From Acidobacteriota bacterium (GTDB lineage: Bacteria > Actinomycetota > Acidimicrobiia > Acidimicrobiales > RAAP-2), in assembly GCA_028873575.1 (NCBI GenBank), contig JAGWHY010000016.1, forward strand, positions 1-32,329: a DNA stretch of 32,329 nucleotides, in the 5' to 3' direction. A model generated the notes under the pieces. It did not search any database, was not told the origin of the DNA, and saw only the letters and a list, made by a program, of their open reading frames with translations. This document shows positions 26,265 through 31,031 of the stretch, in pieces. The number at the start of each line of letters is the position of its first letter. The first letter of the stretch is position 1. The translations under genes were made by a program, and so were the position numbers.

Positions 26265-26504
26265 ATGGACCGAAACGAAGCATTCGCGAAATTCACTGAG
26301 AACGCCTGCGAAGTTCTCGCCGTGGAGCCGTCGAAGGTGACGCCTGAGGCGTCCTTCGCCGACGACCTGGGCGCCGACAGTCTCGACCTGGTCGAGTTGG
26401 TCATGGCGCTCGAAGAGACCTTCGACATCGAAGTCGCTGAAGACGAACTCAAAGAGATTCGTACCGTCGGCGAGGCCTTCGATTTGATCTACGCCAAGCT
26501 GTAG
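26265..26504 (+). CDS. acpP: Acyl carrier protein
   Basis: A 79-residue acidic four-helix carrier for growing acyl chains. The phosphopantetheine attachment Ser is S39 in the [11 protein letters not shown] motif. The ATG at 26265 has AGAGGGG 7 nt upstream; the frame upstream to 26205 is non-coding leader. It lies 60 nt after fabG, the only real gap in the fab cluster, and is followed by fabF with the stop's last base reused. Confidence 0.96.
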
Positions 26505-27703
26505 TGCGCGTCGCCGTCACGCCGTCGGGACCCGTCCAGGGCTACCGCGTTGCCGTCACGGGTCTCGGGGCACTGACCTGCGCCGGTGTTGGCGTTGACG
26601 CGCTGTGGGACGCGCTTCGTCGCCCCGTCGCGCCGTCGAGTGCCCGTGTGCCCGACTTTGACGCCTCGCACTTGGGGGGGCCTAAGGAACTGCGACGCTT
26701 TGACCCCTTCACGCTCTACGCGCTGATGGCCGCGGACGAGGCGTGGCGCCAGAGTGGCTTAGCGGGCCCACTGGTGGACGCCGGCTCGATCGTGACGACG
26801 GGCATCGGAGGTCTGCAGACCATTTTGGAGCAGGTGCGCGTACTCAACGACAAGGGTCCGGACCGCGTGTCGCCGTTCATGGTGCCCATGATGATGCCCA
26901 ACGCCGCGACGGCCGCCGTGTCAATGCGCTTTGGACTCGGCGGACCTTGCGAGACCGTGACCACGGCGTGTGCCGCGGGTACCCACGCGATTGGCAACGC
27001 GGCGCGACTGGTCGCGACCGGTCGCTGCAACGTCGTACTCGCGGGCGGTGCCGAAGCCGTAATGACCGAGATCGCCATTGCCGGATTTCGCAACATGACC
27101 GCGCTTTCGTCAACGGATCTCTCTCGCCCCTTCGACGTGGCCCGCGACGGCTTCGTGATGGGCGAAGGCGCTGGCGTGCTCGTCCTCGAGGAGTGGGAGC
27201 ACGCGAAAGCGCGGGGCGCCACGATTTTGGCCGAGGTCGTTGGCGCCGCGTCGACCGCCGACGCGCACCACATCACGGCGCCCGACCCCGACGGGCACGG
27301 CGCCATTCGCTGCATGCGCCTGGCGCTCGAGGACGCCGAACTCGACGTCAGCGACGTCTCGCACATCAACGCGCACGGCACGTCCACTCCACTCAATGAT
27401 CTCGCCGAGTCGGTCGCGGTGCGCAAGCTCTTTGGTGAGCACGCGCCACCCGTCACTTCGATCAAGGGTCACCTCGGTCACTCTTTAGCGGCGGCCGGCG
27501 CCCTGGAGGGCGTCGCCTCCGTCCTCACCCTGCAGCACCAAGAGATCCCCCCAACGGCCGGCACGACGGAGGTCGATCCCGAGGTCGGTCTCGACGTGGT
27601 CGTGGGCGCACCGCGCGCGGCGTCCGTTGACGTGGTGCTGTCCAACTCTTTTGGCTTCGGCGGCCACAACGGCAGCGTCGTGTTCCGCCGAGCCGTCGCC
27701 TAG
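26504..27703 (+). CDS. fabF: 3-oxoacyl-ACP synthase II
   Basis: The condensing enzyme of fatty acid elongation, 399 residues. The thiolase-fold triad is visible: C156 in TTACAAGTHAIG, H291 in INAHGTSTPLND and H326 in KGHLGHSLAAAGA, with K321 in the same loop. The GTG at 26504 shares its G with the acpP TAG stop; the N-terminus has about ten extra residues before the usual RVAVTGLGALT. No fabH or fabI/fabZ lies here, so initiation, dehydration and enoyl reduction must be encoded elsewhere. Confidence 0.94.
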   Translation: MRVAVTPSGPVQGYRVAVTGLGALTCAGVGVDALWDALRRPVAPSSARVPDFDASHLGGPKELRRFDPFTLYALMAADEAWRQSGLAGPLVDAGSIVTTGIGGLQTILEQVRVLNDKGPDRVSPFMVPMMMPNAATAAVSMRFGLGGPCETVTTACAAGTHAIGNAARLVATGRCNVVLAGGAEAVMTEIAIAGFRNMTALSSTDLSRPFDVARDGFVMGEGAGVLVLEEWEHAKARGATILAEVVGAASTADAHHITAPDPDGHGAIRCMRLALEDAELDVSDVSHINAHGTSTPLNDLAESVAVRKLFGEHAPPVTSIKGHLGHSLAAAGALEGVASVLTLQHQEIPPTAGTTEVDPEVGLDVVVGAPRAASVDVVLSNSFGFGGHNGSVVFRRAVA

Positions 27704-27735: not shown

Positions 27736-28548
27736 GTGCGCCACGGTCTTTTTCTTCCGCCCTTTGACGAACTCGCCGACCCCCACCGACTCGTCGAACT
27801 CGCGGTGCTGGCCGAGTCGTCGGGTTGGGATGGATTCTTTCTCTGGGATCACCTGACGTACCCCGCGCCGGTTTCGGCCATTCTCGACCCGTACGTGTGC
27901 CTCAGCGCCGTCGCGACGGCGACGTCTCGAATGGCAATTGGCCCAATGATCACGCCACTCACCAAGCGCACCCTCGCCGTCGTGGCGCGCCAGGCGCTGG
28001 CGCTCGACGCGTTGAGCCACGGTCGCCTCATCATGGGCTTTGGTCTCGGCGATGATCCCCCGCTCGGTGAGCGCGACCAGCCACTCCACGTGCTCAACGG
28101 CGTTGAGCGTGGCCGCGCGCTTAGCGAAGCGGTCGCGCTCTTTCGCGATCTCCTGCGTGGCGACGCGCGGGCGCACGACGGTGAGTACTACCAGGTGCCC
28201 GCGCGGACCTTCGTCGGTGGTGGGACGAGGTCAAGAGACGTCCCGATTTGGCTCGGCGCGCGCTGGCCACATCAGGCGCCCCTGCGTCGCGCCGCCGCGT
28301 ATGACGGTGCGTTCGAAATCTTTCTCGACGGTCCCGAGAACGTCGCCGAGGTTCGCTCAACGCTGCAGACGGCGGGAGCAAATCTCGAGCACTTCGACGT
28401 GGTCGTCTGGTCGGGCGCGATTGACGCGCTCGACGCGGCGCGGTGGTCCGCCCAGGGCGTCACCTGGCTGCTCCGGGGCGCCGGCCCGTTCAACATGCGC
28501 TTTGAAGAGATTCGTGACCAGATTGCCGCCGGTCCGCGCCGAGAGTAG
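27736..28548 (+). CDS. LLM-class (luciferase-like) flavin-dependent oxidoreductase
   Basis: A 270-residue TIM-barrel protein of the bacterial luciferase-like/F420 family. It starts RHGLFLPPFDELADP, followed by AESSGWDGFFLWDHL, an alpha/beta pattern with 'LSHGRLIMGFGLGDDP' and 'VPIWLGARWP'. Relatives use FMN or F420; which one and what substrate cannot be read from sequence. The GTG at 27736 has GAGGA 4 nt upstream, 32 nt after fabF. It converges with the next gene with no intervening base. Confidence 0.82.
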   Translation: MRHGLFLPPFDELADPHRLVELAVLAESSGWDGFFLWDHLTYPAPVSAILDPYVCLSAVATATSRMAIGPMITPLTKRTLAVVARQALALDALSHGRLIMGFGLGDDPPLGERDQPLHVLNGVERGRALSEAVALFRDLLRGDARAHDGEYYQVPARTFVGGGTRSRDVPIWLGARWPHQAPLRRAAAYDGAFEIFLDGPENVAEVRSTLQTAGANLEHFDVVVWSGAIDALDAARWSAQGVTWLLRGAGPFNMRFEEIRDQIAAGPRRE

Positions 28549-29199
28549 CTAAAGTCCCCACTCGTTAAAGTCCCGCTCGACACGCGCGTGCTCGAACGCC
28601 CAGCGCGCGTTCGCGATGAACTCCCCCAGTCGCACGGGATCTTTGACGCCCGGTCGCTGCTCGACCGCTGATCGCGCCTCGACGCCAAAGACGGGGAAGT
28701 TCTGGACGACGTCGACCACGTTCGTCGGATCGAGTCCGCCCGAGGCGACCACCGGTCGACGAGCGTCGGAGGTGCGCAGGGTGTCGAGCGCCGCGTTCAG
28801 CGCGAAATGATCGTCGTCCTCGGGCACGACGAGGTAGTCGGCGTCTTCTGGTCCGCGACCCTCGACGCCGATTCGACGAAAAACTGTGTTGACGCGTTCA
28901 CGAACGTAGGCCAACTGTGAACCCGCCCACGCTCCCTCGAGTTGCACGGCACTAAGCCCCAAGGTGTTGGAGATTTCGACGACCCGTTGAGGCATTTCGT
29001 TACGAAACGACCCAACGCTGAGCGCCCCCTGCGGGAGTCGGCGAATGATGTCGTGCGCGTTGGTGGCGCTGATCTGACGCGGCGAGACGCCAAAATCGAA
29101 GCCCACGGCGTTCGCGCCGAGGCCAATCGCGAACAAGGCGTCCTCCTCGGAGGTCACGCCGGCGATTTTGATGAAGAGGCCCTCGACGTTTAGACGCAC
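28549..29199 (-). CDS. TrpF-fold protein lacking catalytic residues (phosphoribosylanthranilate isomerase-like)
   Basis: A 216-residue (beta/alpha)8 protein aligned by eye with TrpF: KIAGVT, GANAVGFDFGVSPRQIS, AVQLEG, ASGGLDPTNV and AVEQRPGVKDP. The catalytic Cys of KICG is Ala (A13), the QLHG His is Glu, the general-acid Asp and its following Gly-rich loop are absent (replaced by VVPEDDDHF), and SSGVE is RSAVE. Isomerase activity is therefore unlikely, and a new or structural role is possible. The GTG at 29199 has AGGAGG 4 nt upstream. The YgfZ-like gene lies 40 nt upstream on the same strand, so they are probably co-transcribed. I would not call it trpF. Confidence 0.75.
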   Translation of the reverse strand: MRLNVEGLFIKIAGVTSEEDALFAIGLGANAVGFDFGVSPRQISATNAHDIIRRLPQGALSVGSFRNEMPQRVVEISNTLGLSAVQLEGAWAGSQLAYVRERVNTVFRRIGVEGRGPEDADYLVVPEDDDHFALNAALDTLRTSDARRPVVASGGLDPTNVVDVVQNFPVFGVEARSAVEQRPGVKDPVRLGEFIANARWAFEHARVERDFNEWGL

Positions 29200-29239
29200 A
29201 CATCCTCCTGGTAACCAGGTTAGGTCCGCCGACGCGACG

Positions 29240-29929
29240 CTAGGAAAGCGCCACCACGCTCACGGGTCCCAGGTCGTCGCGCGTCAGGAGTGTCCGGTGC
29301 GCCACGCCAAAGCCGCGCACGCCGGCCGGCGTCGCGACGATGGACGTGACGCCTTGGGGACCGGCAGGCCCCGACGAGTGCAGACACGCGTCGACCGCCT
29401 CGACACTCGGACCGTCAAAGGTCACGACGCGCCAGGGAACGCTCGCGCCGCGCGCGTCGAGTCGACCCACGAGCTCTTGTCCAGTAAAACAGCCCTTCGT
29501 GAACGAAATCGTTTGATCAACGAAGGTTTGCCCGTAGCAGTGGGGGCTCAGTTGTCGGGCGAGTTCGCCGTACCCCGGCCAGCGCGCCTGGAGACGTTCC
29601 TCGACGGACGCAAATGGTCCCGCGACGACCCCGCCCGCGTCGAGCGTGCACGCCGTGCGCAGAAGAAAGCGACGGAGACGCGCCAGTACCGGGTCGACGA
29701 GCAGGCTCGGCAGCGTCAACACGAATCCTTCGTCGTCGCGCGCCACCACGACGCTCGACAGAACCGACGAGTCGGGCGCGAGCACGAGCGACCAGCGCGT
29801 CGACGTCGCGAGGTCGCTCACGTCTTGGCTGAGCTGACCCTGGAGAAAGCTCTCCGCCTCGGAGCCCGCGACGACGATGGTAGACCAGGACTCCGTTGAG
29901 AAATCCACGGGGGCGTAAGAAGTGGTCAC
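29240..29929 (-). CDS. ygfZ: YgfZ/GcvT-like folate-binding protein
   Basis: A 229-residue member of the aminomethyltransferase-fold YgfZ group, which supports iron-sulfur cluster enzymes in E. coli using folate. The diagnostic motif KGCFTGQE is present with C147; the N-terminal FLQGQLSQDV and 'GRLDARGASVPWR' also fit. It is shorter than E. coli YgfZ (about 326), as are many actinobacterial forms. The GTG at 29929 lies 8 nt after a minus-strand TAGCGT box. It is transcribed with the TrpF-like gene. Confidence 0.88.
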   Translation of the reverse strand: MTTSYAPVDFSTESWSTIVVAGSEAESFLQGQLSQDVSDLATSTRWSLVLAPDSSVLSSVVVARDDEGFVLTLPSLLVDPVLARLRRFLLRTACTLDAGGVVAGPFASVEERLQARWPGYGELARQLSPHCYGQTFVDQTISFTKGCFTGQELVGRLDARGASVPWRVVTFDGPSVEAVDACLHSSGPAGPQGVTSIVATPAGVRGFGVAHRTLLTRDDLGPVSVVALS

Positions 29930-30188: not shown

Positions 30189-31031
30189 ATGAGTCTTTCG
30201 TGGCAACAACGCTCGGTGTTGTCGCCCGACGAGCGGCTCGCCGTTCTGGATTTCATGAATCGTCTGGAAACGCGCCTTGGCCGCGAGGCCATTGACGAGG
30301 CTCGTCGACGCACGGTCGTCCACGGATGGCGAGGCGAACACTGGTTGCGTCTCGACGGCGAACACGTTCTCGACTACGCCCTGGTCACCGGCGAACAAGA
30401 GGCGTCCGTCGAAATGGTGGGCGGTGGATTCGACGCTGCGCTGCTCAGCGAGCTCTTGCGTCGTCACGCCACGGTCGACTGGTGGACGAGGGGCGCCGGG
30501 AGCCCCGACTTCGACGGTGGCGAGGTTATTCGACTCCTTCAGCTGCTGAGGGTTGAGTTACCCGTGCCCGTCCAACCCGTTCCGCCCGGGGCGCACCTAC
30601 GCCAATTCGAGCCCACTCGTGACGCGGACTCGTGGTTGGCTCAGAACAACGCGGCCTTCGCCGACCACCCCGAACAAGGGGCGTGGACCTTGCGTGACCT
30701 CACCGATCGGACGCTGGAACCTTGGTTCGATCCCTCGGGATTTTTGCTGCTCGACGTCGACGGCGTACTCGCCGCCTCGTGCTGGACCAAGGTGCACGAA
30801 CTGCACCCCGATCGCTTTGGCGAGATCTACGTCATCTCGGTCGACCCCGCCTTTCAGGGACGTGGTCTCGGGCGCGTCATGGTCACCCAGGGACTCGACA
30901 CGCTTCGACGAAAGGGCGTCAGCGAGGCGGTCCTCTTCGTCGACGACTCCAACGAGTCGGCGAAGAAGCTCTACGGATCGCTCGGTTTCACGCTGCAACG
31001 CGAGGATCACCTCGTGCGCTTTTACGCCTAG
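30189..31031 (+). CDS. mshD: Mycothiol synthase, tandem GNAT acetyltransferase
   Basis: The final enzyme of mycothiol synthesis, acetylating Cys-GlcN-Ins. The 280-residue protein has two GNAT domains. The N-terminal one (1-130) is degenerate. The C-terminal one has the acetyl-CoA motif VDPAFQGRGLGRVMV and 'DDSNESAKKLYGSLGF'. MshD-specific segments are NNAAFADHPEQGAWTLRDL and GEIYVISVDP. Mycothiol is restricted to actinobacteria, so this is a strong lineage marker. Its stop overlaps the opposing transporter gene by 4 nt. Confidence 0.92.
   Translation: MSLSWQQRSVLSPDERLAVLDFMNRLETRLGREAIDEARRRTVVHGWRGEHWLRLDGEHVLDYALVTGEQEASVEMVGGGFDAALLSELLRRHATVDWWTRGAGSPDFDGGEVIRLLQLLRVELPVPVQPVPPGAHLRQFEPTRDADSWLAQNNAAFADHPEQGAWTLRDLTDRTLEPWFDPSGFLLLDVDGVLAASCWTKVHELHPDRFGEIYVISVDPAFQGRGLGRVMVTQGLDTLRRKGVSEAVLFVDDSNESAKKLYGSLGFTLQREDHLVRFYA

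Follow-up and report, generated by a model that had tools for sequence, protein, structure and literature searches.

The closest described relative of the protein analysed here is the phosphoribosylanthranilate (PRA) isomerase TrpF (PF00697; 1nsj/1lbm). The protein, designated TrpF*, shares with TrpF the fold, the GGL loop, Asp174, Glu180, the KD motif and an ancestral place in the trp operon; it differs in that the Cys, the Asp, the PGSG loop and the QLHG His are replaced, in having a new D/E35 and R176, and in having no trp neighbours. A similar case is that of the TSB-like pseudoenzyme of eudicots, described as a tryptophan-pathway enzyme turned non-catalytic at key residues and nevertheless kept (PMC12727527). 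Unlike the plant protein, TrpF* is a TrpF rather than a TrpB, it is bacterial, and any partner role is putative. Finally, PriA, HisA and SubTrpF2 of Actinomycetota are related phosphoribosyl isomerase barrels whose function shifts after gene loss or gain; they are reported to keep an Asp/Asp catalytic pair and isomerase activity (PMC13055916, PMC4462073), whereas TrpF* is a PF00697 member in which both catalytic residues are absent. A search of the open-licence literature found no description of a TrpF pseudoenzyme or of a trpF* gene.

The trpF* gene occupies positions 28549..29199, on the minus strand, of the window (the whole 32,329-nt stretch of DNA analysed). It encodes a TrpF-fold protein of 216 aa with its catalytic residues replaced. 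The reading frame is intact and starts with GTG, 4 nt downstream from a Shine-Dalgarno sequence, AGGAGG (29204..29209, minus strand), in agreement with the intact frame and strong ribosome-binding site reported in the initial annotation of this DNA. A Pfam search returns PRAI only, at 61.1 bits (cut-off 22.7; E = 1.5e-16), and the best score against the NCBIfam phosphoribosylanthranilate isomerase equivalogs is 92.5 bits, under the cut-off of 215. By sequence, the nearest solved structure is that of T. maritima TrpF (E = 9e-21). An AlphaFold model built from 78 aligned sequences (mean pLDDT 92.6) superposes on 1nsj with a Z score of 27.1 and an rmsd of 1.8 over 192 residues. The fold is that of TrpF; the Pfam match, the T. 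maritima match and the superposition agree on the scaffold that the initial annotation had recognised. Foldseek and VIA-align both place TrpFs at the top, followed at similar, lower scores by PdxJ, KDPGal aldolase and ribulose-phosphate epimerase; none of these matches beyond TrpF, to other phosphate-binding barrels, points to a function for TrpF*.

The register of the active-site residues was set by alignment with intact relatives, in which column 13 is Cys and column 126 is Asp in 59 of 59 sequences. These columns correspond to Cys7 and Asp126 of T. maritima TrpF, which we take to be the catalytic residues. In the window protein they are occupied by Ala13 (codon at 29161..29163; this and the following codons are on the minus strand) and Pro126 (28822..28824). 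The protein reads KIAGVT where TrpF has KICGxT, and QLEG in place of QLHG, with Glu88 (28936..28938) standing for the His at the end of strand 4. P126-E127 replaces the D-G of the catalytic Asp and the PGSG loop is absent. EARSAVE is found in place of DVSSGVE; its Arg176 (28672..28674) belongs to the second phosphate loop and directly follows strand 8. Asp35 (29095..29097) stands at the end of strand 2. Thus, the alignment and the mapping onto T. maritima TrpF bear out all four changes listed initially: Cys to Ala, QLHG His to Glu, loss of the catalytic Asp along with its Gly-rich loop, and SSGVE to RSAVE.

The genome from which the window derives (1.8 Mb in 95 contigs) has one other PRAI-family gene besides the window copy; it is intact and lies on a separate contig (C77), as part of a trpC-trpF-trpB-trpA cluster. 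The 99 genomes of the genus, one per species, were all searched; in 96 of them the gene at the old site or of the window type was read. The altered type is present in 85 of the 99 genomes; 11 have an old-site operon with a TrpF keeping the loop and the Asp; and 3 (G062, G102 and G148) have only a gene in C77-type context. TrpF* is full-length in 79 of its 85 carriers, and in the other 6 it is interrupted by contig ends or runs of N. Contamination or assembly error is ruled out by the recurrence of trpF* at an identical location across many independent genomes. When the TrpF* profile was run against 298 genomes of the order, TrpF*-level scores were confined to the window's genus: the best match outside it reached 200.8 bits, against at least 273.7 bits for TrpF* copies. 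Score alone does not part close intact relatives, however, since an intact copy from the same genus (G028) scored 267.8 with this profile. Among 24 loci from outside the family, QLHG was recovered from all 24 by one or both of two pattern reads, and the Cys position was Cys in 18, Glu in 1 and not read by the pattern in 5. A TrpF with KIEGMT, that is, with Glu for the catalytic Cys and with PGSG kept, occurs in another family of the order (locus L211, genome G283). The relatives identified were mostly metagenome-assembled genomes of Acidimicrobiales or Actinomycetes.

Replacement of the catalytic residues extends to the whole altered clade. Among the 79 full-length TrpF* sequences, position 13 is Ser in 71, Ala in 6, Gly in 1 and a gap in 1, and is never Cys. 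Position 126 is Pro in 75 and Asp in 4. The GSG loop motif was found in none of the TrpF* sequences read. The initial annotation had proposed a search for orthologs sharing the Ala and Glu substitutions; the changes are indeed clade-wide, but the usual replacement for Cys is Ser, not Ala. It had also held that orthologs with an intact Cys/Asp pair would speak against its reading: intact copies do exist at the same locus in relatives, but the altered clade is uniformly altered.

Other positions have acquired residues characteristic of the clade. D/E35 is present in 79 of 79 TrpF* and in none of the 59 intact TrpFs, R176 in 64 of 79 against none of 59, and D/E88 in 58 of 79, at a position where 58 of the 59 intact proteins have His. 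The same pattern was seen in a first set of 45 TrpF* and 59 intact sequences, in which D/E35 (45), D/E88 (31), P126 (41), D/E127 (37), D/E130 (33) and R176 (33) were all absent from the intact group. Mostly kept in TrpF* are the GGL phosphate loop, Asp174, Glu180 and the Lys186-Asp187 (KD) motif, as well as Arg41 (Arg36 of T. maritima), found in 65 of 79. In the AlphaFold model, residues 13, 35, 88, 126 and 176 are located at, or just past, the C-terminal ends of strands 1, 2, 4, 5 and 8. Such strand ends form the catalytic face of (beta-alpha)8 barrels, and judging from strand position the conserved side chains would face the pocket. We read the TrpF* site as a changed ligand site, and not as a simple loss. 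The initial description of an erased active site is therefore apt as regards the catalytic residues, which are gone, but misses that the site has been remodelled with clade-specific residues.

These data bear on the possibility that TrpF* still isomerises PRA by means of other residues. The GGL loop and Arg41 are mostly kept, and HisA-type barrels use an Asp for the Cys. We nonetheless hold this highly improbable: the Cys is gone in all TrpF* and the acid and loop in 75 of 79, Ser or Ala offers no equivalent base, and a second PRAI-family gene is present in 83 of the 85 carriers. The two carriers in which no such gene was detected are G114 (86% complete) and G167 (70% complete). Where second genes were fetched from matched genomes, they were intact at the Cys and Asp columns in 32 of 32.

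The old site itself offers a different kind of exception. In one of its 11 operon loci (L169, genome G162), the TrpF reads KIDGVT, with Asp for Cys, in an operon that looks intact, as does the loop; the search of this genome gave no second TrpF. Asp serves as the base in HisA and PriA, and the G162 protein may be a working Cys-to-Asp TrpF. Loss of the Cys alone is thus no proof of lost activity.

Comparison of gene order shows what surrounded trpF* in the past. Where relatives keep the intact gene, the order at this place is fabD-fabG-fabF> <trpA<trpB<trpF<trpC<ygfZ<trpE<groES-like, mshD>, VIT1. In TrpF* genomes the identical borders, represented in the window by fabF (26504..27703, plus strand) and by an mshD-like (mycothiol synthase) gene (30189..31031, plus strand), enclose just trpF* and ygfZ, and a trpC-trpF-trpB-trpA cluster with an intact TrpF is located elsewhere. 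Since the same borders now hold these two genes only, trpE, trpC, trpB, trpA and the GroES-like gene appear, from gene order, to have left the old site, with trpF alone of the trp genes staying behind. Operon loci of the genus number 11 (L030, L031, L042, L050, L051, L052, L061, L064, L067, L169 and L173), some of them ending at contig ends or at the limits of short fetched stretches. In other genera, an intact TrpF lies beside trp genes in 18 of 18 loci, drawn from 70 genomes with a match. Altogether, pattern-readable TrpFs in trp context have both the Cys and the GSG, and those without trp neighbours lack both, a comparison in which the Cys pattern failed to read a few rows and to which G162 later provided an exception.

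Some further features of these loci were noted. The GroES-like gene, gone here, precedes trpE in the ancestral operon of several genera (L067 8767-9096 and equivalents). Between fabF and trpF*, at positions 27736-28548 (plus strand), the window carries a gene for a luciferase-like (LLM) oxidoreductase that, among the loci read, is found at this place only in the window and in its nearest relative (L073, L125), and looks like a recent insertion. A match to TrpE lies about 4 kb away in several loci. It adjoins a ubiE/menG-like gene and is presumably an isochorismate synthase, for which reason we rejected it as a leftover trpE.

The initial annotation had suggested that a PriA replacing TrpF freed the window copy to evolve. 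This explanation does not stand, since the same genome has a second, intact TrpF in its trpC-trpF-trpB-trpA cluster. The genome also gives two strong matches to the His_biosynth family, the number expected for one hisA and one hisF, and the PriA argument is not needed. A PF00977 search of the genome gave matches on contigs C49, C70, C84 and C77 and none on the contig of the window (C29). In Acidimicrobium ferrooxidans, HisA is reported to be without PRA isomerase activity (PMC4462073). It is the second trp cluster, not PriA, that would have freed trpF*.

Phylogenetic analysis is compatible with descent from the operon gene. In a carefully built tree of 45 selected rows, which exclude L061 and L064, TrpF* forms one clade (support 100/99) that adjoins intact copies from the same genus (89/81, not starred), and the TrpFs of the new clusters form a separate clade (100/99). 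A quick tree of 106 rows, 47 of them TrpF*, again gives a single TrpF* clade; duplicates and fragments had been removed from it, and L033, L039 and L040 dropped for over-long reading frames. In this tree the old-site TrpFs L061 and L064 (G009 and G088) fall with the new type, a placement flagged as a long-branch join. In the TrpB tree, the new-cluster sequences make up one side of a branch (94), and their grouping with the old-site TrpB of this genus has weak support (54). Because an AU test does not reject the grouping of TrpF* with the new TrpFs (p = 0.246), synteny supports the claim of descent more than the tree does.

In the window, trpF* is preceded on the same strand by a ygfZ-like gene (29240..29929, minus strand; 229 aa, KGCFTGQE kept) that ends 40 nt upstream. 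The pairing recurs: of the 105 loci that could be measured, some genomes being counted twice, 103 have a same-strand ygfZ ending 2-48 nt upstream of trpF*; in 4 further loci there is no ygfZ within the fetched stretch. The KGCxxGQE motif of YgfZ is kept in 32 of 32. These figures, which confirm the ygfZ neighbour that the initial annotation proposed to look for in orthologs, could suggest that TrpF* works with the adjacent YgfZ (folate, repair of Fe-S cluster enzymes), for example as its client or effector. We consider this improbable, for ygfZ already stood beside trpC in the intact operon. Since it lay there between trpE and trpC, its adjacency to trpF* is inherited. Moreover, G062 and G102 keep ygfZ without trpF*, and in G099 and G139 the two genes are 4.5 and 1.7 kb apart. 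So the tie to ygfZ that had been pointed out is real, but the functional hint drawn from it is weakened. The inserts parting the two genes span 5460-9986 in L119 (4.5 kb) and 3038-4804 in L136 (1.7 kb).

The rate at which TrpF* evolves indicates that it is under selection. Across 32 genomes with both copies (496 pairs), median identity is 54.8% for TrpF*, 44.5% for the live TrpF and 45.5% for YgfZ; corresponding values are 58.4% for TrpA (465 pairs) and 79.2% for FabF (325 pairs). TrpF* exceeds the live TrpF in identity in 477 of the 496 genome pairs, although these pairs are not independent. Values of dN/dS (NG86) range between 0.03 and 0.22 across 13 close TrpF* pairs, with 0.07 for the window gene and its nearest relative; in all 7 genome pairs compared, the live TrpF gave the higher value. 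TrpF* is kept by purifying selection and is more constrained than the live TrpF. The live TrpF of the C77-type clusters (L053-L063, L094-L118) is itself fast-evolving, at 44.5% identity as compared to 58.4% for TrpA and 79.0% for TrpB.

A slowly decaying, functionless remnant might be expected of a dismantled operon, and trpF* is in fact absent from G062 and G102, both 96% complete and with ygfZ still between fabF and mshD, and was not found in G148 by the genus search. The gene is dispensable at least in G062 and G102. Decay is nonetheless rejected by the rates, slower than those of the live enzyme, and by the 79 intact frames, the 6 incomplete ones owing their truncation to contig ends or stretches of N; the new invariant residues count against it as well, and we give it next to no credence. 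The initial judgement that the gene is maintained was sound.

The main alternative is that TrpF* is a non-catalytic partner of a tryptophan-pathway enzyme (TrpC, TrpA or the live TrpF), which it would bind and thereby regulate or stabilise. The same pathway provides a precedent in TSB-like, a dead TSB paralogue reported to activate TSA, the tryptophan synthase alpha subunit (PMC12727527). A C-terminal tail that has a Trp close to its end is found in 24 of 29 ancestral TrpFs and 53 of 77 TrpF*, against 1 of 35 live TrpFs, and among pairs involving TrpF* the highest partial rate (distance) correlation is that with TrpA (0.48 and 0.42; L067 TrpA and C77-type loci). However, the rate test is unspecific, as live TrpF and YgfZ, without a known link, score 0.50, and the TrpA correlation is no more than a lead; the tail is absent from 24 of 77 TrpF*; and many of the clade-specific residues map, in the model, to the catalytic strand ends and not to the outside. 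By analogy with the plant system, a partner role for TrpF* is conceivable but rather unlikely.

The best reading of these results is that TrpF* was left over when a trp operon was replaced and has since been repurposed, as either a pseudoenzyme or a neofunctionalised paralogue. The features of a pseudoenzyme found in TrpF* are the lost residues, the purifying selection and, in nearly all carriers (83 of 85), the second PRAI gene; its inactivity is presumed. We propose that the old trp operon stood between fabF and mshD and that TrpF* would be its former TrpF. Within a single lineage of the genus, tryptophan synthesis would have passed to a second trpCFBA cluster, and trpE, trpC, trpB, trpA and the GroES-like gene would have disappeared from the original locus. 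The old trpF would have stayed and lost the equivalents of Cys7 and Asp126, while a new conserved set (S13, D/E35, mostly D/E88, P126-E127-x-D129 and R176) arose on the catalytic face of the barrel and the GGL phosphate loop, Asp174, Glu180 and Lys186-Asp187 were retained. Most likely, TrpF* would still bind a phosphate-bearing ligand, related to a tryptophan or a ribose-phosphate intermediate, in the rewritten pocket; it might sense or hold this ligand, or convert it by new chemistry, and would no longer isomerise PRA. Taken as a whole, we give this proposal slightly better than an even chance. That TrpF* is the founder of a new TrpF-barrel function, as a ligand binder or an enzyme with a rewritten site, born with the second trp cluster and now found in 85 of 99 species of a single acidimicrobial genus, we hold more tentatively, as falling a little short of an even chance.

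Residues, rates and the literature search thus uphold the core of the initial annotation, namely a protein with the TrpF fold for which PRA isomerase activity is very unlikely, which is under selection and which probably does an undescribed job. Pfam alone would label these genes as PRA isomerase, wrongly, and could mislead pathway models. Within one genus and at one locus, the intact operon, the dismantled operon and the loss of the gene all survive, amounting to a natural before-and-after experiment: extant species allow the passage from enzyme to altered protein to be put in order. That TrpF* is better conserved than the live enzyme speaks for a genuine task, and makes the role of a former TrpF a directly testable question.
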